In this document: positions 1,648 to 21,520 of the stretch, piece after piece
Numbering within the stretch: the first letter of the stretch is position 1
Layout of the letters: every line of letters begins with the position of its first letter
Source of the DNA: a virus
Length of the DNA stretch: 24,004 nucleotides
Reading direction: 5' to 3' (one strand)
IMG/VR virus record: IMGVR_UViG_3300018025_000024
Span: 1 to 24,004 of that record
Translations under genes and position numbers: made by a program
Notes under the pieces: generated by a model
Told to the model about the DNA's origin: nothing
Seen by the model: only the letters and a program-made list of their open reading frames with translations
Databases searched by the model: none

Positions 1648-1675
1648 TTGACACCGGCCGGGCCGTGCGCATGAT
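1648..1675 (+). promoter_or_regulatory. Promoter with perfect -35, for a leaderless small gene
   Basis: TTGACA (1648-1653), a 16-nt spacer and CATGAT (1670-1675), which matches the -10 consensus at 4 of 6 positions. Only six bases (GGGGTC) separate the -10 from the ATG at 1682, so transcription would start at or next to the start codon. It lies in the only gap between the terminase and the small genes that follow. Confidence 0.6.
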
Positions 1676-1681
1676 GGGGTC

Positions 1682-1750
1682 ATGCTGCTCATCCTATTGA
1701 TTGCCCTGGGTATCTGCATACTCTTGGCCGTGGAGCCCGACGACACATGA
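1682..1750 (+). CDS. Tiny single-pass membrane peptide
   Basis: 22 residues that are almost entirely one hydrophobic helix (MLLILLIALGICILLAVE) with an acidic tail (EPDDT). It is too short to assign to a family; a membrane insertion role, for instance in lysis, is possible but unproven. It follows a good promoter, has six bases between the -10 box and ATG, and ends in an ATGA overlap with the next gene, which supports real translation. Confidence 0.5.
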   Translation: MLLILLIALGICILLAVEPDDT

Positions 1751-1899
1751 CCCCCGAACCCATAATCACGGCCGAAGACCTCGACATCAACCGCGACCCG
1801 CTCGCCGCCGCCCCGCCGCCCCCGATGAACCGCCGCATGCGCCGGGCGTTCGCATCGATCATGCGCAAGGTGAAGAAGCCGGGGCGGAGGCGTTCGTAG
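1747..1899 (+). CDS. Small basic protein, unknown function
   Basis: 50 residues. An acidic N-terminus (MTPEPIITAEDLDINRD) is followed by an Ala/Pro linker and a strongly basic C-terminal half (NRRMRRAFASIMRKVKKPGRRRS) that could bind nucleic acid or a membrane surface. The start overlaps the preceding stop as ATGA, typical of coupled genes. No family recognised. It ends three bases before the next ATG. Confidence 0.55.
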   Translation: MTPEPIITAEDLDINRDPLAAAPPPPMNRRMRRAFASIMRKVKKPGRRRS

Positions 1900-1902
1900 G
1901 CC

Positions 1903-2151
1903 ATGGCTTTCCAGAACCTACACGAGGACGTCGCCGAACTCTTCGCCGATTTCACTCCGGGGTTCGATGACGCCGATTGGGGTAGGTTCTGCTTCGGGAA
2001 TATCACCAGAGCGCCTAGGTGTCGAAAGCGCCGAGTGAGGCATGCTTCGGTTAGGCGCGCGCCGATAGCCTATCGTCTGGTCTCCCGAGCTTCCGAGATG
2101 CAACATCCGTGGGCTCAGCCCTGGCCAAGAAACGCGCCAGCCTTACAATAG
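1903..2151 (+). CDS. Small hypothetical protein with an MAFxxL N-terminal module
   Basis: 82 residues. The first 17 or so (MAFQNLHEDVAELFADF) resemble the start of the next gene product (MAFADLQRGVLEAFVDA), so the two look like diverged copies or share an N-terminal module. The rest is rich in Arg (TRAPRCRKRRVRHASVRRAP) with a Pro/Trp-rich end. Short phage proteins with this kind of helical start and basic tail are common next to terminase genes, but their function is not known to me. The C-terminal part reads less naturally, and a frameshift after about residue 35 cannot be excluded. Confidence 0.5.
   Translation: MAFQNLHEDVAELFADFTPGFDDADWGRFCFGNITRAPRCRKRRVRHASVRRAPIAYRLVSRASEMQHPWAQPWPRNAPALQ
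2144..2149 (+). promoter_or_regulatory. -10 box TACAAT, leaderless spacing
   Basis: TACAAT ends six bases (AGGGGC) before the ATG at 2156. There is no clear -35 (CTGGCC at 17-nt spacing). The arrangement matches the other TAnnAT boxes in the window. Confidence 0.45.
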
Positions 2152-2155
2152 GGGC

Positions 2156-2344
2156 ATGGCTTTCGCAGACCTGCAACGCGGCGTTCTCGAGGCGTTCGTC
2201 GACGCCGCACACATCGCCCCGGTCACTTTTATCCCCGGATTGGAGACAGATCTTGAACAACGTAGAGCAAGATGGCGCACGTATTCTCGCGATCGTCGGG
2301 CCGCAAATCGCGCGCTTCGCCGTGCCGCCGCCCAGAAAGCATGA
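2156..2344 (+). CDS. Small basic helical protein, paralogue of the preceding gene
   Basis: 62 residues. It opens with MAFADLQRGVLEAFVDA, like its upstream neighbour, and ends in a long Arg/Ala helix (RRARWRTYSRDRRAANRALRRAAAQKA). A W-x-x-Y core within repeated Arg is typical of small phage proteins suspected of binding DNA. A TACAAT box sits six bases before the ATG. An overlapping frame opening at 2109 and running to 2474 was judged a shadow because it lacks this natural composition. Function unknown. Confidence 0.6.
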   Translation: MAFADLQRGVLEAFVDAAHIAPVTFIPGLETDLEQRRARWRTYSRDRRAANRALRRAAAQKA

Positions 2345-2649
2345 CATCGAGCCGGATGATGGGGTAGTCGTTGCGTACCGGCCGTGGGGACGCAAGGCTG
2401 TTCGGGCCGTAGGGGCTCGACGCCGCCACGAGATTCAACCGTTGAATGTTGCGGTGTGCGCCCACCGGGCCTAAACTGTAACTCGACTCATCAAGCCCAC
2501 CACGACGACCGGTCCCAAGCCGGTAGGGCCATCCGCCGCCGTTCCAACGGTCGCGGTGTCGAGAGGCCGACCGGGTGCACCGGCAACTCCCTCAAAGACC
2601 GCGGATGTTGTCGCCAGCCCTCGGCGCCCCTAAAAAGGCCCCGGGGGCT
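2345..2649. other. About 300 bases without a supported gene
   Basis: The stretch lies between the end of the rightward small genes and the leftward portal region. Both strands have short frames, but none has convincing composition, a start signal or a family resemblance. It contains a 15-nt inverted repeat (2433-2447) and, at its right end, a GC-rich palindrome followed on the - strand by five T. The transcripts converge here, so termination signals are expected. Confidence 0.5.
2433..2447. repeat. Perfect 7-bp inverted repeat with 1-nt centre
   Basis: ATTCAAC-C-GTTGAAT. It is AT-richer than its surroundings and has no loop long enough for a terminator, so a protein-binding site is more likely than a hairpin. 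No gene start is nearby, so its purpose is unknown. Confidence 0.4.
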
Positions 2650-2650
2650 T
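2632..2650 (-). terminator. Possible weak terminator for portal-strand transcripts
   Basis: Read on the - strand it is AAGCCCCCGGGGCCTTTTT: a GC palindrome with a very short loop followed by five T, beginning at the last base of the TGA stop at 2650-2652. The stem has a mismatch and an awkward loop, so it may be weak. Its position right after the leftward reading frame is the main support. Confidence 0.35.
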
Positions 2651-2874
2651 CACTTTGGTGGCCATGGGGCTCTGCGCTTCGTCCCGCATGCATTCCTATA
2701 CTCGTCAGCCGTCACCGGGTAAGCGGTACGAACGTACCACGTGCAGGCGGTGCCCTTGTCTGGAACGATGACGACGGCGTATCGCGCAGCGTAAGGAACG
2801 TGTCCAGGAGGCGCTCCTACGCGTTCTGAGCACCCCCGGCGAGCTGTTCCGACGTCTCGCCGGGTGAATCCCAC
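2650..2874 (-). CDS. Possible BECR-type nuclease domain in the -1 frame of the portal end
   Basis: A 74-residue frame from GTG 2874 to TGA 2650, of which 55 codons lie beyond the portal stop. The distal half looks like folded protein: strands YAVVIVPD and TWYVRTAYPV, then TADEYRNACGTKRR. The TAYP strand and the order of strands recall the phage barnase/EndoU/colicin/RelE-like (PBECR) domains that often ride on phage portal or MuF proteins; this is resemblance by eye only. It could be made from its own GTG start, or as a portal extension by a -1 frameshift near the G run at 2833-2837. A terminator-like element follows its stop. Codon third positions are roughly 70% GC by hand count over the distal part, which fits coding sequence. 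Confidence 0.4.
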   Translation of the reverse strand: MGFTRRDVGTARRGCSERVGAPPGHVPYAARYAVVIVPDKGTACTWYVRTAYPVTADEYRNACGTKRRAPWPPK

Positions 2875-4976
2875 CCCGCGTCGATAGCATCCGTGTCGAC
2901 CGTGTCCCGACGTGTCGGCCCCGCCGCGGGCTTCCTCGCCGCGCCCGGTTTGCCTGCCGCGGGCGCCCCCTTGGCCTTCAGCATCGCCTTGTTGAGCTCG
3001 TGATCGCGGCCCGCTTGGTCGGACTGCATCTGCATCTGCTTCTCGGCGTTCGCCTGTTGGGTCTTTGCGTCGTCGGCCGCGTTCGGTGGTAGCTCGGCGG
3101 TCTCAAGTTTTTCTGACCGGAGCTTCGTATCGATCTCCGTGTCGAGATGCAGCTCCCCGTTCCGGAACCGAGACTTCGCGACTTCCTCGGGGAGAAGAAT
3201 CTTGTTCGCGACATACGCCGCGTCGGTTTGGGCCATGTTCCAACGGATCGTCGACTGCTCGACCTCGGACGGCTCGTAGAGCTTCGGCCAAATGAACTGC
3301 ACCCCACCGGCCGGCATGACACCCCCCGTGGGACCATCCTTGGCCATGAGGATGAGCGAATACAATCTCCGAAGGCGGGGCTCGAGGTCGCTCTTGATCT
3401 CGCCGGCCACGACATCGTAGAAGCGTCGGAAGTCCGCGTCTCCCGTGGCGTTCAACCCGCTTGGCTCACGACCGAAGAGTAGCGCGACGGGCATATTCGC
3501 CGCGGCAGCCACTCGGAGCATCAACATGTGGATCGTGTCGGCTACGCCCGTGAGCGGTGTCGCTGTCCGCTCAAACTTCTCATTCTCCGCGTCGATGTAG
3601 AGCATCCGCCCGGACGACCGTGATTGGTCGACGAGGGACATACGCGTCTGGAGGGTTTGCGGGTCGTTCGAGATCAATTGCGCCAAGCCGTTGATCGACA
3701 TGACCGCCTGCGCGAGGTCGGACATGAGGTTTGCCACCGACTGGAACGACATATCGAACTGTCGCATCGTGTCGTAGGGTGCCTGGTATTTCGAAAGCCC
3801 CCACCCGAGCAGTTGCCGTCGCTTCAAGAAATCGACCGCGGCTCCGTCGAATCGAATACAGCGAGACTCGTGGACGCGGGTGTTCGCCGATCCGCCGAAG
3901 GGGTTGATAATCTCCCAGGTCTCGACCTCGCCGAATTTGGGGCCGATGTCGGCATACCACGTCGACGCGAAGATGAATCGGCGATCCATCCACGAGAGGT
4001 ACCGGATGGTCTTGATCTTGGTCTCGTCGAGGGGGAGGGCCATGTCCTGACCGTCGTCGGCGCCGACGATGATCAAGCCCCCGCCGAGCACGCCGCCCCA
4101 CACGGAAGCCTCGTACGCCCGCGCGATGAGACCGAGCCGACCGGCGTAGACTTCCGTGGCCTTGGCGATATCGGCGCCCGCGTCTTGGTCTATGGCCCCG
4201 TTCGCGGCCGGTTTACGGTTAGACTTCGCGGTGATCGGCGTCGTGACGCCCTTGGCCGTCTTCTCGCCGTAGGGGTCGGGTGCCGACGCGGTGATCGATG
4301 CGGATGGCCTGTTGGCCGTGGCGTTGTTCTTAGGGTCGGCCGAACCCGCGATGGGTTGCCGTTGGCCCTTGTCGAGCTGGTCGGGCGCTGCCGCGTTGAT
4401 GCCCTTGATCGATGCGCTGCCCGTGGCGTTGTCGGGAGATGCCCCGAGCGGATCGACGAGAGGAGACCCCGGCGCCGCTGGGCCGGATTCACCGCCTCGC
4501 GGTTGTTCCATCGGATTGCGCGACTGGTCCTTCAGTGTATCGGTGTCCGGGTCCTGGGGGATGACGAGCTTCCACCCACGGCGGAACATCTCGTTTGGTC
4601 GGGCGGTGGCAATCCGTTGGGCGATGTCATTGTTGTTGAACAGAGCCACGCATTGGGGATCGTCAAGGCGCGGGGGTTCGATGAACCGGCCGTACATCAC
4701 CTTGTCTCGGCCATAGACGCCAAGGCCGGTTACCGGGTTTACCCACCCGCCGCCGTTCATGGGGGGGCCCCCGCCGATGAGGCCATCCAGGAGATTGTCG
4801 TTGCGCCACGCGCGGGCGTAGGATTCCTGGGCCGTGATAGGGCCTTCGACGGGTGCCGGAGCGAGGAGCGGCTCTCCGCACGCCACGGTCATGCAAAGGG
4901 CCTCGGCATAACGCCGCTTCTCCTCGGGGGGCGTGTGTGCGATGAGCAGGCCGGCGTCGTTACGGGTTGTTTCCAC
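2817..4976 (-). CDS. Phage portal protein, DUF1073 type, with a low-complexity insertion
   Basis: 719 residues. This is the dodecameric channel at one head vertex, which docks the terminase and the neck. Family-like segments are the N-terminal FNNNDIAQRIATARPNEMFRRGWKL (113-137), then YAGRLGLIARAYEASVWGGVLGGGLIIVGADDG (277-309), PLDETK, WEIINPFGG and the C-terminal VALLFGREPSGLNATGDADFRRFYD segment. DUF1073 portals share this domain with the N-terminal part of Acb1-like proteins. Between about residues 146 and 268 lies a Pro/Ala/Asn/Gly/Ser-rich insert not expected in the family, and the last 90 residues are a Gln/Lys/Ala/Pro-rich tail. The GTG start at 4976 follows a CGCTAAAAT box by five bases with no Shine-Dalgarno. 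The gene stands apart from both terminase and capsid genes. Confidence 0.88.
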   Translation of the reverse strand: METTRNDAGLLIAHTPPEEKRRYAEALCMTVACGEPLLAPAPVEGPITAQESYARAWRNDNLLDGLIGGGPPMNGGGWVNPVTGLGVYGRDKVMYGRFIEPPRLDDPQCVALFNNNDIAQRIATARPNEMFRRGWKLVIPQDPDTDTLKDQSRNPMEQPRGGESGPAAPGSPLVDPLGASPDNATGSASIKGINAAAPDQLDKGQRQPIAGSADPKNNATANRPSASITASAPDPYGEKTAKGVTTPITAKSNRKPAANGAIDQDAGADIAKATEVYAGRLGLIARAYEASVWGGVLGGGLIIVGADDGQDMALPLDETKIKTIRYLSWMDRRFIFASTWYADIGPKFGEVETWEIINPFGGSANTRVHESRCIRFDGAAVDFLKRRQLLGWGLSKYQAPYDTMRQFDMSFQSVANLMSDLAQAVMSINGLAQLISNDPQTLQTRMSLVDQSRSSGRMLYIDAENEKFERTATPLTGVADTIHMLMLRVAAAANMPVALLFGREPSGLNATGDADFRRFYDVVAGEIKSDLEPRLRRLYSLILMAKDGPTGGVMPAGGVQFIWPKLYEPSEVEQSTIRWNMAQTDAAYVANKILLPEEVAKSRFRNGELHLDTEIDTKLRSEKLETAELPPNAADDAKTQQANAEKQMQMQSDQAGRDHELNKAMLKAKGAPAAGKPGAARKPAAGPTRRDTVDTDAIDAGWDSPGETSEQLAGGAQNA

Positions 4977-5031
4977 GGCCTATTTTAGCGCCGGTTCTTG
5001 CGCGACGGGTCTCGACACGCTAAAATCGCAT
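4977..5031. promoter_or_regulatory. Divergent promoter region with inverted CGCTAAAAT boxes
   Basis: 55 bases separate the portal GTG (4976, -) and the His-rich gene ATG (5032, +). A perfect inverted pair fills it: CGCTAAAAT on the - strand (4982-4990) and CGCTAAAAT on the + strand (5018-5026). Each TAAAAT lies exactly five bases from its start codon. The + copy has TTGCGC (4998-5003) at 17-nt spacing as a possible -35. Both mRNAs would be leaderless or nearly so. Confidence 0.65.
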
Positions 5032-5445
5032 ATGACCGATCGTTGGATACCCCCCGCCGAACGCCCCGCCGCGAAGAAAAAGGCCGCCCTTGACGAGACC
5101 CGCGCTATCGTCGCGATCGTAGAAACCGACGCCGCCCTGGCTCGCGCGCAGCAAGCGAAGGACCTTGTAGAAATCCAAAGCGACGCTTTAGCTTTGGTAC
5201 GCGCCGAGGTCAAGAAATGGCTCCGATTGTCCGAATCGCCGGACTTTGCGAACGCGATCGGTCCGGTAGAGCCCGCGATCTTGTTGAAGCTCGCAGAGCT
5301 CATCATGAAGTACGCGCGCGTGGACGCCGGCATGGCCACGGAGAATCACGCCCATGCGCACGCGCACACCGACGTCGACTTCTCGAAGCTCACCCAGGAC
5401 GAGCGCAACGCGTGGCTGGCCATGGCGGCGAAGATGAAACGGTAG
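5032..5445 (+). CDS. Helical protein with His-rich segment, possibly packaging related
   Basis: 137 residues. There is a basic N-terminus (PAAKKKAALDETRA), a long helical middle (AALARAQQAKDLVEIQ, then LALVRAEVKKWLRL), a helix LKLAELIMKYARVDAGMA, a His-rich stretch HAHAHAH (106-112), and a C-terminal helix KLTQDERNAWLAMAAKMKR. The His stretch followed by a short acidic and helical end reminds me of some small terminase subunits, but the resemblance is weak and no helix-turn-helix is obvious. The ATG at 5032 is preferred over an upstream in-frame ATG at 4933 because it sits five bases after TAAAAT. First gene of the + strand island. Confidence 0.7.
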   Translation: MTDRWIPPAERPAAKKKAALDETRAIVAIVETDAALARAQQAKDLVEIQSDALALVRAEVKKWLRLSESPDFANAIGPVEPAILLKLAELIMKYARVDAGMATENHAHAHAHTDVDFSKLTQDERNAWLAMAAKMKR

Positions 5446-5452
5446 GGTGGGG

Positions 5453-5480
5453 TTGACGGCTGCCGGGGGCGGGTTACGTT
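5453..5480 (+). promoter_or_regulatory. Promoter before the RuvC-like gene
   Basis: TTGACG (5453-5458), a 16-nt spacer and TACGTT (5475-5480), with the same spacing as the promoter at 1648. Ten bases (GGGGGGCGGC) lie between the -10 and the ATG at 5491, leaving a leader of only about three or four bases. An in-frame TTG at 5479 overlaps the -10 and is unlikely to be used. Confidence 0.45.
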
Positions 5481-5490: not shown

Positions 5491-5919
5491 ATGAGAATCC
5501 TAGCCCTAGATCCCGGCAACACGACCGGATACGCGTTCTTCGATGGCCCCGCGCTCATCTTCGCCGGCACCATGGCCCCCGATGACCGGCCTTTCGGCAT
5601 CCTACCGGTAGACACCTTGGTCGTGATCGAATGCCCAACCCGAGTCTTCAGGCAGGCCACGGTAACCAGCATTCTGCACCTGTCCCGGTGCGTGGGTCGG
5701 TATCAGGAACGATTCCGCGAACATCGGCAGAAGCTTGTCGCGCCCCACGAATGGAAGGGTAGCATCGACGGGGACATCATGACCAAGCGCATCGAGGCTC
5801 AACTGACCCCGGCGGAGCGGTCACTTTTACCGACCAAACCGCGAGGGGGTCTAGACCACAATATGCTCGACGCAATTGGCCTGGCCCGCTGGAGCCTCAG
5901 ACAACCGTGGGCAAAGTAA
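5491..5919 (+). CDS. RuvC-like Holliday junction resolvase (RNase H fold)
   Basis: 142 residues. Such enzymes resolve branched DNA, which in a phage helps clear junctions before packaging or supports recombination. The opening strand MRILALDPGNTTGYAFF is the classic RuvC/RNase H signature with the first catalytic Asp (D7). A second acidic residue is in VVIECPTR (E47), and the C-terminal DHNMLDAIGLA supplies Asp residues (D122, D127) in the usual DxxxxDA arrangement. The family is normally 140-170 residues, so it is complete. The ATG at 5491 starts exactly at the signature strand; the frame extends upstream only to a TTG at 5479. Its end overlaps the next gene by 13 nt. Confidence 0.8.
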   Translation: MRILALDPGNTTGYAFFDGPALIFAGTMAPDDRPFGILPVDTLVVIECPTRVFRQATVTSILHLSRCVGRYQERFREHRQKLVAPHEWKGSIDGDIMTKRIEAQLTPAERSLLPTKPRGGLDHNMLDAIGLARWSLRQPWAK

Positions 5920-6443
5920 TCCTCGCCCTCTTTTACGCGCTACTCGTCTCTTGCCACGGATACACGCGCGTCGCCGCAGGTCCGTACAAGACTGTCGTCA
6001 CCCCCATATACGTCGATCCCGAGCTCCCCCCGGAAACAGTCTACGCTATTCGCGCGTGGAACCTGGCCATGAACGGGGCCTATTATCTCGACGCTCGCGC
6101 ATGGGGGCCAGCCCCGGAACCCCCTGCTGTCGTTCTGTATGCCGCGCATAAAGGCAACCCCATGCTACGACGGGGCGGGGAGTTAGCTGTCGGCGTCACT
6201 TTCCCGTGGGATGGTACCTACCCGTCGGCGCTCATCTACATCGACATCGACTACGCTCGGGCGCACCCGACGCAACTAGTGCCCATAATCGCGCATGAGC
6301 TAGGACACGCCTTCGGGGCTGAGCACATACCGGGCACTTTGATGTCACCGACAATCATCGATACGGCCTGCATAGACCTGCCGACGATCACGGCCGTGGC
6401 CAAACGCCTACACTTGAACCCGGCGTGGCTGAATCATTGCTAG
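5907..6443 (+). CDS. Exported lipoprotein metalloprotease of metzincin type
   Basis: 178 residues from a GTG. Residues 1-16 form a lipoprotein signal (MGKVILALFYALLVSC) with a lipobox ending at C16, so the mature protein should be lipid-anchored outside the cytoplasm. The zinc site HELGHAFGAEH (130-140) is the full HExxHxxGxxH metzincin motif with Glu131 as catalytic base, and TLMSP (M146) is a suitable Met-turn. Upstream strands (TVVTPIYVDPEL, SALIYIDIDYA) fit a small matrixin-like catalytic domain without propeptide. The gene overlaps the RuvC-like gene and ends exactly where the converging fibre gene ends. Possible roles include cleaving host surface proteins, superinfection exclusion or, in a prophage, altering the host envelope. 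Confidence 0.8.
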   Translation: MGKVILALFYALLVSCHGYTRVAAGPYKTVVTPIYVDPELPPETVYAIRAWNLAMNGAYYLDARAWGPAPEPPAVVLYAAHKGNPMLRRGGELAVGVTFPWDGTYPSALIYIDIDYARAHPTQLVPIIAHELGHAFGAEHIPGTLMSPTIIDTACIDLPTITAVAKRLHLNPAWLNHC

Positions 6444-9691: not shown

Positions 9692-10075
9692 CTATTGCCC
9701 CCGTGCGGTGACGATGAAGGGTTTGCCCAGACCCCCGACGAGGACGACCCCGTCATTGGTGGTCATGGAGACGTCCACGGAGATTTTTCTCGCACTGGTG
9801 TTGAAGTCGATGTTCACGTAATTTACGGTCGAAACCCCGGGGCACTCTTGACAGACCTGCGTGATGAGCGAGGAGATTGTCGACAGGTTCGGGTTTTTCA
9901 CGTAAACGTACGTGAAGTACGGGAAGCCGAGTCGGCCATCCCGGAACCATTCCCCCTGAAACATCGAGAACAGCGCCGTTAGCTTCGCCGCCGTAATAGC
10001 GGCGTTCGACGTAACTAGGGCGAGATTTCCCGAGTCGTAGTCGAGATCACCGTCTTTTAGGAGGAAGGAAGACAC
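9692..10075 (-). CDS. Baseplate wedge protein, gp25/W-like (Mu gp46 type)
   Basis: 127 residues from a GTG. Segments AITAAKLTALFSMFQGEWFRDGRLGFPYF and the ferredoxin-like alternation STISSLITQVCQECPGVSTVNYVNIDFN then ISVDVSMTTNDG are typical of gp25-like wedge proteins, which nucleate sheath assembly at the baseplate. It lies directly before baseplate J, as in Mu-like clusters. The GTG at 10075 is six bases after a TAAAAT box (10082-10087), although the start is also inside the end of a small overlapping gene, so it may be translated from two mRNAs. Confidence 0.82.
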   Translation of the reverse strand: MSSFLLKDGDLDYDSGNLALVTSNAAITAAKLTALFSMFQGEWFRDGRLGFPYFTYVYVKNPNLSTISSLITQVCQECPGVSTVNYVNIDFNTSARKISVDVSMTTNDGVVLVGGLGKPFIVTARGQ

Positions 10076-10221
10076 GCGAGCATTTTAGCGCATTCGAGGA
10101 CGCTCGGGTCGGTGCTCGTGAGCAGCCACGCTATAATCCTTTTCCGTTCCGCCCACGCCCCTGCGTTTACCGCGTTGCGCAAAGCGACGGTCACGGGTCC
10201 GAGGGGCGCGTATTCGGTCAT
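10057..10221 (-). CDS. Small helical protein between spike and gp25-like genes
   Basis: 54 residues: MTEYAPLGPVTVALRNAVNA, then GAWAERKRIIAWLLT and a C-terminal VLECAKMLACLPSS. The ATG overlaps the spike stop as ATGA (10218-10221) and its own stop lies 19 nt inside the gp25-like gene in a different frame. These overlaps and the natural helix pattern argue that it is real. I do not recognise a family; its place suggests a baseplate accessory or chaperone. Confidence 0.6.
   Translation of the reverse strand: MTEYAPLGPVTVALRNAVNAGAWAERKRIIAWLLTSTDPSVLECAKMLACLPSS
10082..10090 (-). promoter_or_regulatory. CGCTAAAAT box before the gp25-like gene
   Basis: A perfect copy of the recurring box on the - strand; its TAAAAT ends six bases (GCTCGC) before the GTG at 10075. 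It is embedded in the coding sequence of the small upstream gene, which could give the last baseplate genes and fibre their own transcript. Confidence 0.5.
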
Positions 10222-13039: not shown

Positions 13040-14863
13040 CTATTGCCCCAACGGTAGCGACAACGGGTCGGGCATCGATGGGTTCGCCTGATTGAATGTC
13101 GATTGATTGGCCTCTTGCATGGCGCTGAGCACGCCGCGCCGTATCTGCTCTGCGAGCTCTTGCTGCGAGGGGGCCGTGACCTGAACGGTGATCTGCTGCT
13201 GAACGTGATTGGTCGTCTGCGGAGCCGCCGGAGCGCCACCCGTGACGTAGGGGCCGTAACCCGGGCCTACCACTCCACCGCCCATGGCCTCCCGCTGGTC
13301 CTGCGCACCCGGGTTGTCCCACTCCCCCGTACCCGGCGAGCCGAACGGAATGCCTCCGTTACTGTACATCGTCGGGGTGGTGAAGTCCACTGCCCGGGCC
13401 AGGCGGTCAAGCATCTTGCCCCACTTGTCGGTTTCGGAATCGGTACGCTCCTTATCCGCGTCGAGCGCCGCCGATCGGGCGTCCAGATTTTCCGACGTGC
13501 TCCCGCCGATGGCCGTCGGGACAACCCGGTCGATGGCGATCGACAGCCGTTGGTACCATCGGACGACGTCCTGAATCAATGCCCGAACGGATACGAGCCC
13601 GCGACAGATGCCGACCAGGGCGTAGAGCGTGTACTGCACCGCCGCCGGGATGGTCGACGCGAAGAAACCGATGACCTCCTGAGCGAAGGACTTGTTCTGC
13701 CCCTTCGCACCGAATATCGCCGTCGTCACGGCCTCGAAGGCCACCTTGAGATTCTTGACCCATGCCGCCGAGGCGCCGACACCGGAAATCGAGTCGATGA
13801 AGTCCCCGATGATCGATCGCTTGCCATGAAGGAGTGCGTAAAAGTCGTCGAAGGCCAAGTAGATGTATCCGACCGCGGCGGCGATCGCCAGCAGCAATAC
13901 GGCAGCCGGCCCGAAGTTCGCGAGCGCGAACGCCGTTTTGATTGCCCGTGTGAGCACGACCAAGGCCCCGATGACGCCCGCACCGCCCAAGAACATGAGG
14001 GCTGTCTGAACGCCTGTCGTGTGCTTGACGTAGTCGACCATGACGCGGGTGTTCTGAAGCGCGCGGTCCTGCCATTTCAGCATCGTCGGCAACACCGTTT
14101 CCATGACCGACGAGGCCAACGCCTTCCACCCGAGCTTTTGCAAGGCCAGCTGATCGTTGAACTCCTTCGACGCCCGAATCATTCGCTCGGATGGCCCCCC
14201 GGTGAACTCCTTGTACAGCGCGAACTGCTTTCGGAGCTCGGCGGACCCGTGCTGCAAGATCGGCAGCAGCGCGGAACCGCCGCGACCGAGCGCGCGCATG
14301 GCGTAAGCCGTCCGGGTCGCCTGATCGGGGATGACGGCCAGCCTGTCGGAGAACTCGAACAGGAGCTCTTCCGTCGGCTTCATACGCCCGTGTGCGTCCC
14401 GGACGGACAAACCCATCTGATTGAAAATCTTGGTCGTGCCCTTCGTCCCGAGACCGACCTCGCCCGCCGCGCGGTTGAAGAACCGGAACGCCGTAGTCAA
14501 CTCGACGAACGAGATTTTCGACTTGTCGGCGATGAACTGGTACATCTTCAGCTCACGGGCCGACACCCCCAGCTTTTCCGCCATGACGTCGAGCCGCACC
14601 GCCGCGTCGATCTGTTGCCTGACGAAGTCGGAGATTCCCCGCCCGAGCCGCATGATGCCGTAGATCGTGGCGACCGATGCCAGTTGCCCCAGGAACCCGC
14701 CTCCGACCCCCACCGACCTCGTGGCGCGCCCGGCGGCGTCGGCGGCGCGCGATACCCCACGCAACGCCCCGACCGCAGCATTCGCCTTCCCGGCGACGGC
14801 GTTCAAACCCTCGGCGCCTTCGATTTTGATGCCGAGGCGAATGAAGAGATCGCGGAGTGCCAC
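13040..14863 (-). CDS. Tail tape measure protein
   Basis: 607 residues from a GTG. It sets tail length and leaves through the tube at infection. A helical N-terminal half (LNAVAGKANAAVGALRGVSRAADAAGRATRS) leads into a glide region with two hydrophobic stretches, about 287-307 and 313-338, that may insert in the host membrane. The C-terminal third is Gly/Pro/Gln-rich and ends with a helix SQQELAEQIRRGVLSAMQEANQ. At roughly 1.5 angstrom per residue it would set a tail near 90 nm. It directly follows the frameshifted chaperone genes, the standard order. AGG lies seven bases before the GTG. Confidence 0.85.
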   Translation of the reverse strand: MALRDLFIRLGIKIEGAEGLNAVAGKANAAVGALRGVSRAADAAGRATRSVGVGGGFLGQLASVATIYGIMRLGRGISDFVRQQIDAAVRLDVMAEKLGVSARELKMYQFIADKSKISFVELTTAFRFFNRAAGEVGLGTKGTTKIFNQMGLSVRDAHGRMKPTEELLFEFSDRLAVIPDQATRTAYAMRALGRGGSALLPILQHGSAELRKQFALYKEFTGGPSERMIRASKEFNDQLALQKLGWKALASSVMETVLPTMLKWQDRALQNTRVMVDYVKHTTGVQTALMFLGGAGVIGALVVLTRAIKTAFALANFGPAAVLLLAIAAAVGYIYLAFDDFYALLHGKRSIIGDFIDSISGVGASAAWVKNLKVAFEAVTTAIFGAKGQNKSFAQEVIGFFASTIPAAVQYTLYALVGICRGLVSVRALIQDVVRWYQRLSIAIDRVVPTAIGGSTSENLDARSAALDADKERTDSETDKWGKMLDRLARAVDFTTPTMYSNGGIPFGSPGTGEWDNPGAQDQREAMGGGVVGPGYGPYVTGGAPAAPQTTNHVQQQITVQVTAPSQQELAEQIRRGVLSAMQEANQSTFNQANPSMPDPLSLPLGQ

Positions 14864-14869: not shown

Positions 14870-14905
14870 CTACATTGCCTCGGGGTTGCGGTCGATACGC
14901 GGCAT
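14870..14905 (-). CDS. 11-codon frame between chaperone and tape measure
   Basis: MPRIDRNPEAM, starting inside the chaperone stop (TAAAATG) and stopping seven bases before the tape measure GTG. It may simply bridge ribosomes from the chaperone stop to the tape measure start, or be chance. Listed because it fills the only gap here and overlaps a CGCTAAAAT box (14904-14912). Confidence 0.2.
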   Translation of the reverse strand: MPRIDRNPEAM

Positions 14906-14912
14906 TTTAGCG
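14904..14912 (-). promoter_or_regulatory. CGCTAAAAT box upstream of the tape measure gene
   Basis: Perfect copy of the recurring box on the - strand at the end of the chaperone extension frame. Unlike the others it is 40 bases from the next large gene start (14863), so if active it would make a short leader with an AGG ribosome-binding site rather than a leaderless message. Confidence 0.35.
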
Positions 14913-15487
14913 GGTCGCGTCGGCCATGGCTTTATCGTGCGCCGCGCGCTCGGCGTCGACCAATTGCTTCGCCGCGTCGTGATATTCGGCCAAGTCCTCG
15001 AGCGACCACTCTTCTTCGATCTCTCGAAGCGTGGCCGCACCTCGGATGATAGGGAGCCAGACTACGAGGTCGGCGCGGACGGGGGTGTCGTCATCGCCGC
15101 CATCGCCTTCTTCTGGAGGTCTTCGATTGCGGCTGGGTTTATCCCCAGCTCGGACAAAAAACTGCCGAACGAGACCTCCAAGCAGGCCCAGAGCCAACGG
15201 ATCATCGTGCCGTATTTCCCAGCGAAGAACTCATCGAAGACCTTGCCGAGCTCGTACGTGTGAACCCCGCCGTCCTCGGAATAGTCGGTCGACGCCGCGA
15301 AGGTGTCGCAAAGGAAGTCCACGTCCGCATCCGTGAGCGCCACCATGGCCGCCGCGAAGGATTCCCCCGCGAAGCCGGAGCCGACGACCTTGGTCAATCG
15401 GGTAAGCACCCGGCGGCCTTCCTTGGCGCCGAGCTGACGGATGGTGAACGTGACGCCGTCGATCTCTTTCTGTACGCTTTTCCTCAT
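14907..15487 (-). CDS. Tail assembly chaperone, -1 frameshift extended form
   Basis: The long form is made when ribosomes slip back one base on T-TTT-TTG (15161 to 15155) in the short chaperone gene. It has 111 residues of the short frame, then 82 from the -1 frame, about 193 in all. The extension begins VRAGDKPSRNRRPPEEGDGG (a flexible linker) and continues with VVWLPIIRGAATLREIEEEWSLEDLAEYHDAA. The W-S-L-E-D-L-A-EY segment is typical of gpGT-type extensions that bind the tape measure protein. The extension frame is open from the slip site to TAA at 14907 and has no good start of its own, so frameshifting is the natural explanation. Confidence 0.8.
15062..15487 (-). CDS. Tail assembly chaperone, short form
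   Basis: 141 residues, read without frameshift. Sequence such as VTFTIRQLGAKEGRRVLTRLTKVVG, the region VDFLCDTFAASTDYSED and FDEFFAGKYGTMIRWLWACLEVSFGSFL resemble tail chaperones of contractile phages (gpG-like). With the extended form it should coat the tape measure protein during tail assembly. It begins one base after the small upstream gene (TAGTATG). Its last 30 codons overlap the extension frame, the usual pattern for this gene pair. Confidence 0.82.
   Translation of the reverse strand: MRKSVQKEIDGVTFTIRQLGAKEGRRVLTRLTKVVGSGFAGESFAAAMVALTDADVDFLCDTFAASTDYSEDGGVHTYELGKVFDEFFAGKYGTMIRWLWACLEVSFGSFLSELGINPAAIEDLQKKAMAAMTTPPSAPTS
15155..15161 (-). other. Programmed -1 frameshift site T-TTT-TTG
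   Basis: A canonical X-XXY-YYZ heptamer in the correct phase of the short chaperone frame (codons TTT at 15160-15158 and TTG at 15157-15155). After slippage the next codon is GTC and the -1 frame stays open for 82 codons. Confidence 0.82.
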
Positions 15488-16096: not shown

Positions 16097-17494
16097 TTAC
16101 GAGGTCAACTGAACGGCCAAGGAGGCGTAGACGATGGCGCCTGCGAGCTGGGCATTGATGAAGGCGTACCCGGCCGGGATGGTCCGAGCCGCACGGGCCG
16201 TCGCGGGAAGCTGGGAGACCGACGGAAGGGTGATGACCGGGGCCGGCGAGGTCGCCAAGAAGCCGGAGTCCTGGAACTGCGTAATGACGCCATTGAAGAC
16301 CGCGCGGTACATGTCCATACCCGCGTCGGTGAACGGCACCTTCTTGTTGCCGAGCTGCATCGCGAAGGCCTGGATTTGCAGGGTGTTCACGCACGCGTCG
16401 GTCCCGCGGATGATATCGATCCATTCGCCGTTGGGCACATTGCCGAACTGCGTGACCGAAACACCTGCGATGGCCGTGTAGACCGAACCGTTCTTGGCGT
16501 TGATGTTGGCGACCTGACCAACCGTCAGGGTATCCGTGGGTACGCCGACGAGCGTCTTGTACGCCCATTGTTCGGAGCCCGCAACGGTCGGGAAGAGGTT
16601 ACCCATCCAAGCAGCGCCCGTGTACGCCAGCAAAGACGTGTGCGCGTGGATACCGGGTGACCGCGCATAGTTCAGGTTCTTGGTGTGGTAAAACGCACTG
16701 GTCGTATCCGACGTCGGTGCGGCGACATTGATGTCGTCCGAGTTATTCCAGACGAAGATACTGCCGGCGTTTCCTGCGGCATTCGCTTCGGTCCAAGCCG
16801 CCGCGGCAGCAATTTCGGCCGCGGACTGCGAATCGAGCGCCAACCCATACCAAGCCGGGTCGAAGGCGTAGATCGCGGCGAGGTCCGTCGCTGTATTCGT
16901 CGAAGAGCCGAGCGTGCCGTCGACCGTCGTATCGGCGAAAGTCGTGTGCGCGCGGTCGAACTGGATGTCGATGAGCTTGCCTGCTGTAGCCGCAGTGATC
17001 GTGATGACCGCACCCACGTGTGCAGCGGTGTGCGTCGACCCAATGGCCGTCAGAGTCGCATTGATGGCCGTCGTGAGCGAAGCCGCATCCGTTGCCGGGA
17101 CGCCCGTAGAGGCCATGCCGGGAACGCCCGAGACGCCGGGACCCGTGATCGTGAAGGAGGCCGCGCCGGGGAGGCGCAGCCCGATAACGTAGATGTCGGT
17201 GGCCGACGTCGACGTGCAGGTGATTTGCAAGGTCTGGGTGTTCGGGTGCTGGCGCCGACCGATCTTCCACTTGGGCACGCACGGCGATTGCGAAGCAACC
17301 ACTTCGGCCATGAGGTAAGCCGCATCGGTCGTCTTGAACCCGTCCGAGACCATCCCCGCGAGAGTAGAATACTCACGCACGAGGTCGGTGTAGTAGGTGT
17401 GGTAAGCTACCAGAAGGGGCTCACCGAAGCCAGCGGCCGACGGATTTGCCGATGAAATCGACGCCGAAACGTTCAGAACCGAGGAAAGGGGCAT
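16097..17494 (-). CDS. Tail sheath protein, DUF3383 type
   Basis: 465 residues. This is the contractile outer tube. The N-terminus (LSSVLNVSASISSANPSAAGFGEPLLV), the aspartate and tyrosine patterns (FDPAWYGLALDS, SIFVWNNSDD, TSAFYHTKNLNYARSPG) and the C-terminal handshake region (VSVTQFGNVPNGEWIDIIRGTDACVNTLQIQAFAMQLGN) fit the DUF3383 sheath family. A beta insertion near residues 85-205 is rich in Thr, Ala and Gly and probably forms a surface domain. GGAG lies eight bases before the ATG, with a CGCTAACAT box just upstream. Neighbours are the tube gene downstream and unknown tail genes upstream. Confidence 0.88.
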   Translation of the reverse strand: MPLSSVLNVSASISSANPSAAGFGEPLLVAYHTYYTDLVREYSTLAGMVSDGFKTTDAAYLMAEVVASQSPCVPKWKIGRRQHPNTQTLQITCTSTSATDIYVIGLRLPGAASFTITGPGVSGVPGMASTGVPATDAASLTTAINATLTAIGSTHTAAHVGAVITITAATAGKLIDIQFDRAHTTFADTTVDGTLGSSTNTATDLAAIYAFDPAWYGLALDSQSAAEIAAAAAWTEANAAGNAGSIFVWNNSDDINVAAPTSDTTSAFYHTKNLNYARSPGIHAHTSLLAYTGAAWMGNLFPTVAGSEQWAYKTLVGVPTDTLTVGQVANINAKNGSVYTAIAGVSVTQFGNVPNGEWIDIIRGTDACVNTLQIQAFAMQLGNKKVPFTDAGMDMYRAVFNGVITQFQDSGFLATSPAPVITLPSVSQLPATARAARTIPAGYAFINAQLAGAIVYASLAVQLTS

Positions 17495-17512: not shown

Positions 17513-17521
17513 ATGTTAGCG
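17513..17521 (-). promoter_or_regulatory. CGCTAACAT box before the sheath gene
   Basis: Variant of the recurring box on the - strand in the 30-base gap before the sheath gene. Its TAACAT is 18 bases from the ATG, and a GGAG ribosome-binding site lies between, so any transcript from it would have a very short leader. Sheath and tube are needed in large amounts, which would justify a separate promoter. Confidence 0.35.
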
Positions 17522-17524: not shown

Positions 17525-17944
17525 CTAAGACCCGCAGATTCGCCAAATCTCTTCGGCAAGGCCCCGCTGTAGCATCGTCCAGGGAAGCTTCGTCCCGTAG
17601 GCTACGAACGTGCCGTTGGCCGTCTTCGAGTACGTGATCGTCGTGCCCGTAGCGTCGGCGGATATGCGCCAATGGCTGTAGGTCGACGTGCCGACGAAGC
17701 GGAAAATCTGCTCGGCGAGTTCCCGCGCATGCGCCACGGGGATGACGGGATTGGTCGAGTCGAAGAGCGAATAGGGCGCCGCAGAAGTCGCCGAGTACCA
17801 GATCGTCACACCCGGCGTAGAGCATTCGACCTGGAAATGCGCTTGATTCGACGTGCCCCCAGAGCCCTCGATGATGTTGGTCGGGGTCGCCGTAGTCGTC
17901 ACGACCCCCGAAGCGGCCGAAGTTCCTAGGGATTTGTTGGCCAT
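17525..17944 (-). CDS. Unknown tail or neck protein
   Basis: 139 residues: a Thr/Ala/Gly-rich start (GTSAASGVVTTTATPTNIIEGSGG), beta segments (HFQVECSTPGVTIWYSATS, WRISADATGTTITYSKTANGTFVAYG) and two short helices (HARELAEQIFRFVG, MLQRGLAEEIWRICGS) that resemble each other. No family recognised. Located between capsid and sheath genes, where neck and tail completion proteins usually are, it may be one of these, but that is only position. Coupled to its upstream gene (TAACATG). Confidence 0.7.
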   Translation of the reverse strand: MANKSLGTSAASGVVTTTATPTNIIEGSGGTSNQAHFQVECSTPGVTIWYSATSAAPYSLFDSTNPVIPVAHARELAEQIFRFVGTSTYSHWRISADATGTTITYSKTANGTFVAYGTKLPWTMLQRGLAEEIWRICGS

Positions 17945-17945
17945 G

Positions 17946-18377
17946 TTACTGGGCCGATACGGTCAAATTGCCTGCGGTGAAATCAGGTGTGTCTGTTGCG
18001 GCGAAGGAAACCGACGCGATCGGACCGTAAAGCCAGAGGTTGCCGGCCGAAGCCGCATCGTAGAGCCCCCAACCGACGACCGTAATCGAGGCCGAGTTCC
18101 CCATCGCGGCCATGATGACGTTGACGCCGTTCGCGATGGTCGACACCCCGGCCGCTACCGACGGTGCCCCGAAGTTCGTCGTGTTCGGCACGATGGCCAG
18201 GCGCGCGTAGGTCGGCGCCGCTGCCGCGGTGACCTCGGTGCCGGCCGCGCCGTTGCCGGGGGCGGTCGTGAACAGCGCGAGGTAGAAGTTCGCCGGAACG
18301 GCCGGGAAAGTCGTGCCTCGGAAGTAATTCAGCAACGCCGCCTGCGCGTAGGTCGAGAGACCGGAGGTTGTAGCCAT
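17946..18377 (-). CDS. Phage fibre-like/decoration beta protein, paralogue of the gene at 21810
   Basis: 143 residues. Start STYAQAALLNYFRGTTFPAVPANFYLALFTTAPGNGAAGTE, then YARL, ANGVNVIMAAMGNSASITVVGWGLYDAASAGNLWLYGPI and DTPDFTAGNLTVS. This pattern (NFYLALFTTAP, GTE, GxGxYDxAxxGNLxxYG, DTPxFxxG) defines a common small phage family usually labelled tail fibre protein; its exact virion location is unknown. The same pattern recurs in the rightward gene at 21810. The ATG lies six bases after TATAAT and just after the capsid terminator, so this gene probably starts a new transcript. Confidence 0.75.
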   Translation of the reverse strand: MATTSGLSTYAQAALLNYFRGTTFPAVPANFYLALFTTAPGNGAAGTEVTAAAAPTYARLAIVPNTTNFGAPSVAAGVSTIANGVNVIMAAMGNSASITVVGWGLYDAASAGNLWLYGPIASVSFAATDTPDFTAGNLTVSAQ

Positions 18378-18383
18378 TGCGTT

Positions 18384-18392
18384 ATTATAGCG
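18384..18392 (-). promoter_or_regulatory. CGCTATAAT promoter box for the tail genes
   Basis: A consensus TATAAT on the - strand (18389 to 18384), six bases (AACGCA) before the ATG at 18377, immediately downstream of the capsid-gene terminator. No -35 match is visible. It probably starts the tail transcript as a leaderless message. Confidence 0.65.
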
Positions 18393-18393
18393 G

Positions 18394-18426
18394 AAAACCC
18401 CGGCTACCTTTCGGCCACCGGGGTTT
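18394..18426 (-). terminator. Rho-independent terminator after the capsid gene
   Basis: On the - strand AAACCCCGG pairs with CCGGGGTTT across a middle that itself folds on a GAAA tetraloop, followed by four T. The stem ends AAAACCCC/GGGGTTT, so it could also work in the + direction. It separates the head operon from the tail genes. Confidence 0.85.
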
Positions 18427-18449
18427 ACTTATTTTCCGTTCACTTGTCG

Positions 18450-19571
18450 TTAGCCCGCAGCGCCATCCCACCGAACGAAGGCGCCGGGGTACGAAACTCG
18501 CAGGCCGCCGATCCTCATGTGGCAGGGGACCTTGACCACGTAATTCACCAACTGCGGGGGGAGCTGCTCGAACTCCAAGGGGATAACGAGCTGCGCGTTC
18601 TCTTCGTTGCGCTCGAACGCCAGGATGGAGGGGCCGATGGTCGATCCGTCCTGCTTGTAGCCCGCGGTCTCGAGCATGTTCGAGAAGAACACGTTCTTGA
18701 TGAAAGGCGAGATACCGACCATGTAGTTCAACAGCGTGTCGCTCGTGAAAGTCAACGACCGGGGCTGCTGAGCGAGCACGGCCCACAAGGACAGCGGGAA
18801 GACTACGGTGTCGGGGCGGTGGATACCCTTGGTCGTCACGAAGATCGCGTTCTGCATCGCGGTCCAATCCGCCATAATCGCCGAAAGCGGCGTGTTCGGA
18901 TTGGTCCAGTTATTCGTACCCACCTGGATGTTCAGGTTCGGGAAGTTCGTGAGGCCGTAGGCGGCCAGCGGGTCGGTCGCGCCCGAGGGGGTCTTCTGGA
19001 GCGCGGCGAGAACCGGCGCGTACTTCAAGGACTGCGAACCGCCACCGGGGATCGAACGGACGCCGAAGTAGGCGATCTGCTCGACAGCGTTCTCGATGGC
19101 GCGGCGGGCCGAGAGAGCTTTGGTCGTCTCGAGGGGAATCCCGGTGAGGCGCGAGCGGCGCACATCCTGGGTCGAGTACTGGTAGGACGTTCCGAGCGAG
19201 AAGAGGCGGCTCGAAAACTCCTGGGTCACGACTTCGGGGGTCGGCATGTCGGCCGCGTAGTCGTCGATGACCTTGGCCGCCGTGTTGAAGTTCCTCTGTT
19301 GCCAGGCGTAGAGCTCGGCACCGGGATCGACCGACGTCATGATCGGGATGATCTTGCGCGCGGTGAGCTCAGGGAACTTGACGTCGTAGGTGCGGGCCAG
19401 GACTTCCGTGAGCGACCGCATGATGAAGGCGGTGCCCGCGGCGTCGACGCGGTTCGCGTCTTCTGGCCGGGCCTCGAGACCGCGGAGGGCTGCCTCCGTG
19501 ATCACGTCGGCCATATCGCAACGCTGGCCAGCGTTACCGGGCAGCTCCGGCGAGATGAATTCGAGACCCAT
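18450..19571 (-). CDS. Major capsid protein, DUF2184 type (HK97 fold expected)
   Basis: 373 residues. It forms the head shell. The segments ELTARKIIPIMTSVDPGAELYAWQQRNFNTAAKVIDDYAADMP, FSSRLFSLGTSYQYSTQDVRRSRLTGIPLETTKALSARRAIENAVEQIAYFG and the late VVFPLSLWAVLAQQPRSLTFTSDTLLNYM and LVIPLEFEQLPPQLVNYVVKVPCHMRIGGLRVSYPGAFVRWDG are those of DUF2184 capsids. It follows the cement gene by one base (TAACATG) with GGGAG eight bases upstream. A strong terminator follows its stop. It completes the protease, cement, capsid order of this phage group. Confidence 0.9.
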   Translation of the reverse strand: MGLEFISPELPGNAGQRCDMADVITEAALRGLEARPEDANRVDAAGTAFIMRSLTEVLARTYDVKFPELTARKIIPIMTSVDPGAELYAWQQRNFNTAAKVIDDYAADMPTPEVVTQEFSSRLFSLGTSYQYSTQDVRRSRLTGIPLETTKALSARRAIENAVEQIAYFGVRSIPGGGSQSLKYAPVLAALQKTPSGATDPLAAYGLTNFPNLNIQVGTNNWTNPNTPLSAIMADWTAMQNAIFVTTKGIHRPDTVVFPLSLWAVLAQQPRSLTFTSDTLLNYMVGISPFIKNVFFSNMLETAGYKQDGSTIGPSILAFERNEENAQLVIPLEFEQLPPQLVNYVVKVPCHMRIGGLRVSYPGAFVRWDGAAG

Positions 19572-19572
19572 G

Positions 19573-20136
19573 TTAGACGCTCCCTGGGATGTTGACGTCG
19601 AGAAGGATGTAGGGGCTCGTGTTTGCCTCGGCCTGACGACCGCGGAACACGTTGGGGCAAGTCACGATTTCGCTCCCTGCGGTGGTCTGAGCCGACTTCG
19701 ACGTGAACACACCCTGAAGGGCCGTGTTAGTCGAAGAGGCGTAGATGCCCGCGGGGGCTGCGAAGACCGGCTGCGCGCCATCACCGGCCCACGAGGCGTA
19801 GATGCGACCGCGCAGAAGCACGGGGACTGTCTCGCCAACCTGATAGGCCAGACCGCCGATGCCGTACGCGTTCACGCCGTAGGAGCCCGAAGACTCGCGA
19901 GCGCTCCGGAGTGTCGCGATCCCGAGGGTGCCGGCGGGGTAGGTGTCCGTCCCGGAGGCGACGGTAAGCTGCTGCGCCTGAAGGCCCGTCGAATCGACGA
20001 TGCACACGCAACCGGGATTGATAACGGATGAGGCCGTGAAGGACACGCTCTCATTGTAAGTGCTATCCGCGAGCTGACCCGGCTCTGCGTTGTCCGGGAA
20101 AAGATTCCAAGTCGTCTGACCAATCGAGAGAGTCAT
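19573..20136 (-). CDS. Capsid structural cement protein
   Basis: 187 residues. The start WNLFPDNAEPGQLADSTYNESVSFTASSVINPGCVCIVD and the later AYQVGETVPVLLRGRIYASWAG fit the cement family (Gp24-like): a beta protein that stabilises the shell at capsomer junctions. It lies between protease/scaffold and capsid genes, the usual place. The ATG immediately follows the protease stop (TAAATG), so translation is probably by re-initiation. Confidence 0.78.
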   Translation of the reverse strand: MTLSIGQTTWNLFPDNAEPGQLADSTYNESVSFTASSVINPGCVCIVDSTGLQAQQLTVASGTDTYPAGTLGIATLRSARESSGSYGVNAYGIGGLAYQVGETVPVLLRGRIYASWAGDGAQPVFAAPAGIYASSTNTALQGVFTSKSAQTTAGSEIVTCPNVFRGRQAEANTSPYILLDVNIPGSV

Positions 20137-21303
20137 TTACGCACCCACCGTCTGAGAGAGGTTGGCAAGCTGGCCGGACTTCAGTCCGCCGTTGAGCAAA
20201 GTACCGGGGGCGACCGCCACGAAAGTACCGGGGGACTGCCATTCCTTGGCCATGTCTGCCTGGAACTTCTCGCGGGCCGAGATGACCCTATTGGTCGAAG
20301 AATCCGTCCGGGTAACCGGCGCGACGAGCGGGGCAACCGCCGACGTCATCGAGGGGTGCGGGCCTTCCTTATACGTCGCCAGCGCAACGTCGAGGGATTG
20401 CTCCGTCAGGGAGTCGATGCGGTCCGCGAGGGCCGGCGTGCGCTTCGCAACGATGGCGCGCTTGACCGCGAGGGTCTTCAAACCCTGGGTCTCAACGCCG
20501 TTCGCCTTCGCTAGGGCAACAATTTCCGCACGCTCTTCGACCAGTGCGTCGAGACGTTCGGCGGGAACCTCCGCGGGGGTCGCGACGACCGCTTTAGCGG
20601 TGGCGAGCTCACCCTGTAGGACGGTGATTTGGGTTTTCAGGGGCTCGACGGCCGTCTTCAGAACCGCATTCTCGGCGACGAGGGAGTCGCACCGGGTTTG
20701 AAGGGCTTTGATCTCTTCAGGTGTCATGCTGTTGATATTGTAGTCCTCGACGATCTCATTATCTTCGGAGTCGAGACGCAAAGAACAGGATTCCCCGCCC
20801 CTAGGGCGTTCAGAACGGGGAAGTATGGCCACGTGGTTCCCGACGAGATTTCGCTGGACCCCATCGTATTTCTGGCCGTCGGGAGTCACGCCGGGGGTGG
20901 AATCGTAATCGACCCGATACCCGCAAGAGATATTGTGGAGGTCGCCCGAACGCACCCGAGAGATGGCGCCCGCGTCACGTATAAGGAGGTCGCCGACCAT
21001 GTTCTCGCCGTCCTGCCTCGGAGCGCCGGAAAGATGGCCGATGGCGTCGCGGCGCCAGGTGGTCGCATCGACGCGGCGCTCGGCGGGATGGGAAATCGTG
21101 ACCGGGACGTCGGCGAAGGAAGCGATGGCGTCGGCCCGGAAGACTTCCTCGGCCGGGCGATACTCGCGGCGAATCGACCCATCGGGATTGCGGTACGGAA
21201 AAATGCCCGTATGGGTCAGGACCGCGGGGACACGAATCGACCCGTCCGGAAGCTCCTTCACGCGCGAAGCATCGAGACGAACCTCGGAATATCGAATGGC
21301 CAC
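20137..21303 (-). CDS. Prohead protease (DUF2213 type) fused to a scaffold-like C-terminus
   Basis: 388 residues from the GTG at 21303. The protease half has MAIRYSEVRLDASRVKELPD, GIFPYRNPDGSIRREYRPAEEVF, a likely catalytic His in VPVTISHPAE (H72) and Ser in LHNISCGYRVDY (S126), then GNHVAILP (H157). After residue 193 comes a coiled coil (PEEIKALQTRCDSLVAENAVLK to LQGELATAKAV) and a flexible end, typical of a scaffold that is cleaved during maturation. A longer frame to 21504 exists, but the GTG lies five bases after CGCTAAAAT and starts the conserved domain. An internal ATG (20727, residue 193) could give a separate scaffold. Confidence 0.85.
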   Translation of the reverse strand: MAIRYSEVRLDASRVKELPDGSIRVPAVLTHTGIFPYRNPDGSIRREYRPAEEVFRADAIASFADVPVTISHPAERRVDATTWRRDAIGHLSGAPRQDGENMVGDLLIRDAGAISRVRSGDLHNISCGYRVDYDSTPGVTPDGQKYDGVQRNLVGNHVAILPRSERPRGGESCSLRLDSEDNEIVEDYNINSMTPEEIKALQTRCDSLVAENAVLKTAVEPLKTQITVLQGELATAKAVVATPAEVPAERLDALVEERAEIVALAKANGVETQGLKTLAVKRAIVAKRTPALADRIDSLTEQSLDVALATYKEGPHPSMTSAVAPLVAPVTRTDSSTNRVISAREKFQADMAKEWQSPGTFVAVAPGTLLNGGLKSGQLANLSQTVGA

Positions 21304-21334
21304 GGGAAATTTTAGCGCATCGCTACCATATAAC
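21304..21334. promoter_or_regulatory. Divergent promoter region with back-to-back CGCTAnnAT boxes
   Basis: 31 bases separate the protease GTG (21303, -) and the small + gene GTG (21335). CGCTAAAAT on the - strand (21309-21317) and CGCTACCAT on the + strand (21321-21329) stand back to back, three bases apart, each exactly five bases from its GTG. No Shine-Dalgarno is present on either side. Confidence 0.6.
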
Positions 21335-21511
21335 GTGGCGGATGTCCCCCTAGGCGTGTCGACGGCCGAGATAATCACGACGGGGAATGCTTTCATTTTC
21401 GTGGTCGATACCGCGAACATAGCCCCGCCGATTATCGTCCAAGACAACCCCGCCGACGATGAGCTCATCGCCGCCATGGGCGCCGAGACCGGCCTACTCA
21501 TCACGGACTAA
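21335..21511 (+). CDS. Small acidic protein, unknown function
   Basis: 58 residues from GTG: VADVPLGVSTAEIITTGNAF, then IFVVDTANIAPPIIVQ and an acidic end NPADDELIAAMGAETG. The GTG is five bases after TACCAT. Two short hydrophobic beta strands and an acidic C-terminus are visible; no family recognised. Its stop codon lies within the -10 box of the next gene. A longer frame upstream (from 20933) overlaps the protease gene and is rejected. Confidence 0.6.
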   Translation: MADVPLGVSTAEIITTGNAFIFVVDTANIAPPIIVQDNPADDELIAAMGAETGLLITD

Positions 21512-21514
21512 GAT
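21509..21514 (+). promoter_or_regulatory. -10 box TAAGAT, leaderless spacing
   Basis: TAAGAT overlaps the TAA stop of the preceding gene and ends six bases (CTCCCG) before the ATG at 21521. No -35 match seen. Confidence 0.4.
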
Positions 21515-21520
21515 CTCCCG

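Follow-up and report, generated by a model that had tools for sequence, protein, structure and literature searches.

A short box at fixed spacing before start codons in an uncultured myophage family, and a phage sigma factor that may read it

The subject of this analysis is a short DNA box that recurs a few nucleotides (nt) before start codons in the window, the whole 24,004-nt stretch of IMG/VR record IMGVR_UViG_3300018025_000024 (positions 1 to 24,004; G000). This 24-kb fragment carries a myophage virion module with TerL, portal, protease, capsid, tail sheath, tape measure and baseplate genes. A sequence-only reading had taken the box for a −10 element of leaderless transcripts. For comparison, close relatives (L006, L007, L010–L013 and L044; 94–100% identity at matched proteins), G003 (72–83% identity over many genes), L045 and L046 (about 70% identity at one baseplate gene) and a wider family (G009 and G089–G097, with the capsid 50–60% shared with the window) were used. 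The capsid has only about 28% identity to those of isolate phages.

Box sites in the window

The box sites and the features directly attached to them are the following.

4982–4990 (−): CGCTAAAAT, 5 nt before the portal GTG at 4976; box retained in L039 and G003, flanks diverged
5018–5026 (+): CGCTAAAAT, 5 nt before the ATG at 5032, divergent to the putative portal promoter; retained in L039 and G003
10082–10090 (−): CGCTAAAAT, 6 nt before the baseplate GTG at 10075, overlapping the end of the upstream gene; retained in L044, L045 and G003
14904–14912 (−): CGCTAAAAT, about 40 nt before the tape-measure GTG at 14863, presumably leadered; same position in G003
17513–17521 (−): CGCTAACAT, 18 nt before the sheath ATG at 17494, with a GGAG Shine-Dalgarno sequence in between
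18384–18392 (−): CGCTATAAT, 6 nt before the ATG at 18377; G003 and L009 have GGCTACAAT at 5 nt
18398–18423 (−): hairpin of terminator type and then TTTT, located 5 nt upstream of the 18377 box; −16.7 kcal/mol
20737–20743 (−): CTACAAT, 9 nt before a nested in-frame ATG at 20727 within the protease gene (scaffold-type)
21309–21317 (−): CGCTAAAAT, 5 nt before the protease GTG at 21303
21321–21329 (+): CGCTACCAT, 5 nt before the GTG at 21335; divergent, 3 bp from the protease box; by direct reading
21508–21514 (+): CTAAGAT, 6 nt before the ATG at 21521; by direct reading; the weakest site, covered by no relative

In the window, CGCTANNAT occurs in 11 copies against 1.6 expected, a number reached by no shuffle, and CGCTAAAAT is the most over-represented 9-mer (five copies against 0.03 expected). 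The spacing is equally far from chance: TANNAT ends 5–6 nt before the start in 8 of the 31 genes, compared with 0.17 expected and with none of 2000 simulations reaching eight, and it stands at this spacing before just 0.6% of all NTG codons. The nine start codons originally listed with a hexamer 5 or 6 nt ahead (the seven so spaced above, together with 1682 and 2156) are all correct, and the box is in strong excess at starts both in the window and across the phage's family. Leaderless spacing holds at many starts; it does not hold for the boxes at 17513 (−), 14904 (−), 10129 (+), 10385 (−) and 23022 (−), the last three of which are intragenic with no start codon at 5–6 nt.

Comparison with relatives separates the box from its surroundings. 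In L039 and G003 the intergenic DNA between the portal gene and the gene starting at 5032 is strongly diverged, but the two boxes are in place, and the same retention of box and spacing between diverged flanks is seen at 18377, 21303, 2156 and 10075. At the baseplate position (10075) the box is also present in G097 and G009, although its conservation there may in part reflect coding constraint from the overlapping gene. Ahead of the protease gene it is found at 5–8 nt in nine family contigs, and the arrangement of terminator hairpin followed by box at 18377 recurs in G003 and G009. The sheath gene of G003 has CGCTAAAAT at 9 nt before its start; the sheath box thus shifts relative to the start, with a Shine-Dalgarno sequence where room allows, which argues for a promoter and not a ribosome site.

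The CTACAAT box at 20743–20737 (−) had been overlooked. It precedes a nested scaffold-type gene, 20137–20727 (−), that lies within the protease gene (20137–21303) and has its own box upstream. The inside of the protease gene is the usual place of the scaffold protein, as in lambda C/Nu3 and Mu I/Z. A box ahead of the protease-nested in-frame start is found in 10 of 12 family contigs, G092 and G095 being the two where none was seen.

Among the intragenic copies, the antisense CGCTATAAT at 10129–10137 (+) is conserved in L044, L045, L046 and G003, reflecting either coding or an antisense promoter. The coding strand uses ATA there, the rarest isoleucine codon of the structural genes (17 of 222). 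As a promoter this copy was set aside, its retention being at least partly explained by the Ile-Ile-Ala-Trp encoded on the opposite strand.

Two of the nine starts do not belong to the same class as the others:

1648–1675 (+): TTGACA, 16 nt, CATGAT, before the ATG at 1682; retained in L039
2122–2149 (+): TGGCCA (TGGACA in relatives), 16 nt, TACAAT, 6 nt before the ATG at 2156

These sites carry −35-like hexamers and have no CGC before the −10 hexamer, so that the nine starts, first treated as one group, divide into two promoter classes. The 2156 promoter is strongly conserved in L010, L039, L012 and G003 and has leaderless spacing as well. From their sequence, both are more likely promoters of a host sigma factor.

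The box across the family

The family-wide form of the box is CTAAA[AC]T, with CTA..AT in the window's clade. The CGC in front of it, which had been proposed as a possible extended −10 contact, is not kept across the family and does not belong to the core. Nine contigs of this uncultured family hold 60 copies of CTAAA[AC]T, 24 of which end exactly 5 nt before the start of an open reading frame (ORF); other spacings hold about one copy per position, and no comparable peak is given by the scrambled versions that were tested. When all 7-mers are ranked by their occurrence 5 nt before ORF starts, CTAAAAT comes first (18 of 38, p = 8e-22), CTAAACT third and CTAAACC sixth. The signal does not depend on the window, since with the window excluded 25 of 73 boxes in the family contigs lie at 5 nt, against 1.3 expected. 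It does not extend to 14 more distant contigs, where one of 24 boxes lies at this distance (0.4 expected).

The surroundings of the box are otherwise plain. The 31 leaderless sites compared have no strongly conserved position upstream and show no sign of a conserved −35 element; their start codons are 20 GTG and 11 ATG, with no TTG. Shine-Dalgarno sequences are few at the leaderless-spaced genes of the family, and where boxes lie farther from the start (9–40 nt) several have one in between. Leaderless expression had been put forward as a main strategy of the phage. The −10-only boxes at leaderless spacing and their family-wide enrichment speak for this, with the qualification that the same box also serves genes with short leaders and Shine-Dalgarno sequences.

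The type of box follows the lineage at the same genes: CTAAAAT in G097, G089 and G090, CTAAACT in G091 and G093, CTAAACC, without a T at −7, in G009, and CTAGANT in G094 and G096. Within most lineages the box is uniform; G095 mixes CTAAAAT and CTAAACT. A T7/T3-like RNA polymerase promoter, considered since the CACTAAA of G009 resembles that of T3, was ruled out, as no longer upstream element is conserved.

The sigma-factor gene and the proposed mechanism

Recognition by a phage sigma factor had been named as a possibility, and a phage-encoded sigma gene does exist, its 3' end lying at the edge of the window:

1–186 (+): last 61 codons and stop of the sigma-factor gene; the window's first 183 bases encode 61 amino acids identical to residues 179–239 of the L010 protein
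177–1622 (+): TerL (phrog_38, E 2e-82), overlapping the end of the sigma gene

The full gene (L010:2633–3352) lies directly upstream of TerL and encodes a 239-amino-acid product that matches phrog_351 'RNA polymerase sigma factor' (E 6e-12). Orthologues occupy the same position in L011, L012, G003, G091, G093 and G095, in the last with a gap of about 1.2 kb. Sigma70_r2 (Pfam PF04542) scores above cut-off in L010, L012, G003, G091, G093 and G095, and Sigma70_r4 has no match in the six family members tested. All PDB matches listed in a profile search with the L010 protein are sigma factors, as are most Foldseek and VIA-align matches of its AlphaFold2 model, of which the C-terminal half is read only as having no sequence match to region 4. 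By these matches the protein can be placed in the sigma-70 family, the absence of region 4 marking a subtype and leaving the kinship unaffected. A more distant homologue beside TerL in L014 (L014:1948–2733) has both region 2 and region 4, which suggests that region 4 was lost in the window's family, or gained in L014. Upstream of the sigma gene, a metallophosphoesterase gene is found in L010, L012, G003, G093 and G095 (L010:1279–2055; L200:10906–11676).

Neither phrog_351 nor the family hidden Markov model found the sigma in G097 or in the distant contigs, apart from one weak phrog_351 match in the distant G106; G097 does not contain the TerL region and is therefore no counter-example to the co-occurrence of sigma and box. 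Around regions 2.4–3, the sigma has RHATPxSRPK in two CTAAACT lineages versus LRDSRGIAIPRRSM in the CGCTANNAT clade, a correspondence over three groups, too few for a formal test. No isolate phage carrying this sigma was found, with weak matches to unannotated gut phage contigs only.

Taken together, it is probable that the box serves as the −10 element in promoters that belong to the phage itself and are presumably late, and that the region-4-less phage sigma reads it on the host core polymerase. The sigma, on the host RNA polymerase core, would have region 2, probably with a region-3-like helix, and no recognisable region 4 to read a −35; a sigma of this kind is expected to use one short element without a −35. 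Pairing the sigma with the box rests on this structure-function logic, on the confinement of both to one family and on their parallel divergence. Transcription would be expected to start 6–8 bp after the box. For a box ending 5 nt ahead of the start codon, transcription beginning 6 bp downstream would coincide with the first base of the codon. At 5–6 nt spacing, which applies to many head and tail genes, the mRNA and its translation would accordingly be leaderless, and we infer from the DNA that this holds in the window's phage. A spacing of 7–9 nt would give a leader of a few nucleotides, and greater distances longer leaders, several with a Shine-Dalgarno sequence.

Several points weigh against this interpretation. 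The TANNAT of the window's clade also fits a housekeeping sigma; region 2 of the sigma lies outside the window and is seen in near-identical contigs only; the sigma sequences compared leave out the CTAAACC (G009) and CTAGANT (G094, G096) lineages; and the AlphaFold2 model has a moderate predicted local distance difference test score of 69, with residues 143–184 unreliable.

The first of these points leads to an alternative in which the boxes are strong extended −10 promoters of the housekeeping or another sigma of a host that often makes leaderless mRNAs, with the phage sigma serving other promoters. TANNAT matches the sigma70 −10, the G at −14 recalls an extended −10, and Actinobacteria, Deinococcus-Thermus and Acidobacteria have many leaderless TANNNT genes (PMC3160421, PMC12340547). 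However, a host sigma would not readily explain why the entire box set switches between lineages at the same genes, to the point that G009 uses CTAAACC without the T at −7, nor why the signal is restricted to the sigma-carrying family. Moreover, CGCTANNAT-N5-ATG shows no excess among 60 Acidobacteriota genomes, and a scan of genomes for CGCTAAAATN5ATGACNGA gave 90 scattered matches, about the chance number, with no phylum markedly enriched. This alternative is considered unlikely. A search of the genome collection for a sheath homologue, aimed at the host, found none.

The box could instead lie within the mRNA and act in translation in place of a Shine-Dalgarno sequence, with transcription starting further upstream, as the tight 5-nt spacing and the few Shine-Dalgarno sequences at those genes would allow. 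This is highly improbable, given that boxes also lie 9–40 nt from starts, several with an intervening Shine-Dalgarno sequence, that one directly follows a terminator, and that the divergent pair 3 bp apart (21309–21329) is too close for an upstream promoter to fit without lying in the neighbouring gene. Least probable of all is an operator for a phage transcription regulator acting on ordinary promoters: an operator would likewise be short, conserved and present at many genes, but the box is directional and non-palindromic, keeps its exact start spacing on both strands, and has no separate −10 or −35 conserved beside it.

A broader version of the phage-sigma reading is more tentative, though quite possible. 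Here the region-4-less sigma would form a one-protein late switch for the virion genes of the whole family, apparently without a clamp; its box specificity would drift together with all promoters of a genome, the transcription start would be placed on the start codon, and most primary late transcripts would be leaderless, including that of the protease-nested scaffold.

Other features and comparison with known systems

Four further features were noted in the window:

5907–6443 (+): small lipoprotein-like product whose HELGHAFGAEH zinc motif is of the matrixin/reprolysin type (weak Pfam matches), an unusual cargo between portal and baseplate genes
14907–15487 (−): tail assembly chaperone and, after it, an overlapping ORF read in a different frame, arranged as for programmed frameshifting
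17946–18377 (−) and 21810–22253 (+): a pair of homologous genes for the phrog_240 'head protein' on opposite strands, with about 33–35% identity in cross-matches
23574–24004: 60-bp tandem repeat of 7.2 copies at the contig end, probably in or near a tail-fibre-like gene

For annotating these metagenomic phages, the promoter word is an aid in finding where genes start and which genes are nested. The natural box variants at the same genes, beside sequenced sigmas, form a ready set for studying how −10 specificity depends on residues of regions 2 and 3. Should the mRNAs be leaderless, the Shine-Dalgarno step would be bypassed for head and tail genes, which would be informative on the ribosomes of the host.

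A −10 box at fixed short spacing to start codons, as in leaderless expression, is found both in the window and in the family. In this the family resembles the leaderless TANNNT genes of Deinococcus-Thermus, Actinobacteria and Acidobacteria, in which a −10 box adjoins the start codon (PMC3160421, PMC12340547). The bacterial TANNNT begins about 12 nt upstream of the start (PMC3160421), whereas CTAAA[AC]T ends 5 nt before it and, unlike TANNNT, is confined to a phage family with its own sigma.

T4 late promoters consist of an 8-bp −10-like box without a conserved −35 and are read by gp55, a minimal sigma-70 relative in which, as in the family sigma, region 2 is present and region 4 absent (PMC2988020, PMC7892883). 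The T4 box is different, and the T4 system additionally depends on gp33 and on gp45, its sliding clamp. A bacterial-type clamp (PF00712) was found in none of six family contigs, none of which is known to be complete, and T4-type clamps and gp33 were not searched for. The sequence and structure matches listed for the family sigma do not include T4 gp55, an absence that carries no weight either way.

The phiEco32 sigma gp36 also lacks region 4, the published explanation for its single-element promoters, with transcription starting 6–8 bp downstream (PMC8948821). The likeness extends to the one short element near −10 (tAATGTAtA in phiEco32), which serves middle and late genes (PMC8948821). Homology of the family sigma to gp36 was not detected by BLASTP (E 0.58) or hhalign (probability 0.2%). 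The box differs, and matches seen in phiEco32 lie tens of nucleotides from the next start and not at 5 nt; phiEco32 is a 77-kb kuravirus, while the window's family are myophages of roughly 45–50 kb. An unrelated, uncultured myophage family thus seems to use the logic of a region-4-less sigma, merging promoter and translation start at many genes. This kind of mechanism is already known from T4-like and phiEco32-like phages; the phage family, the box and sigma found in it, and how often the box sits at leaderless spacing appear to be new within the searches made.

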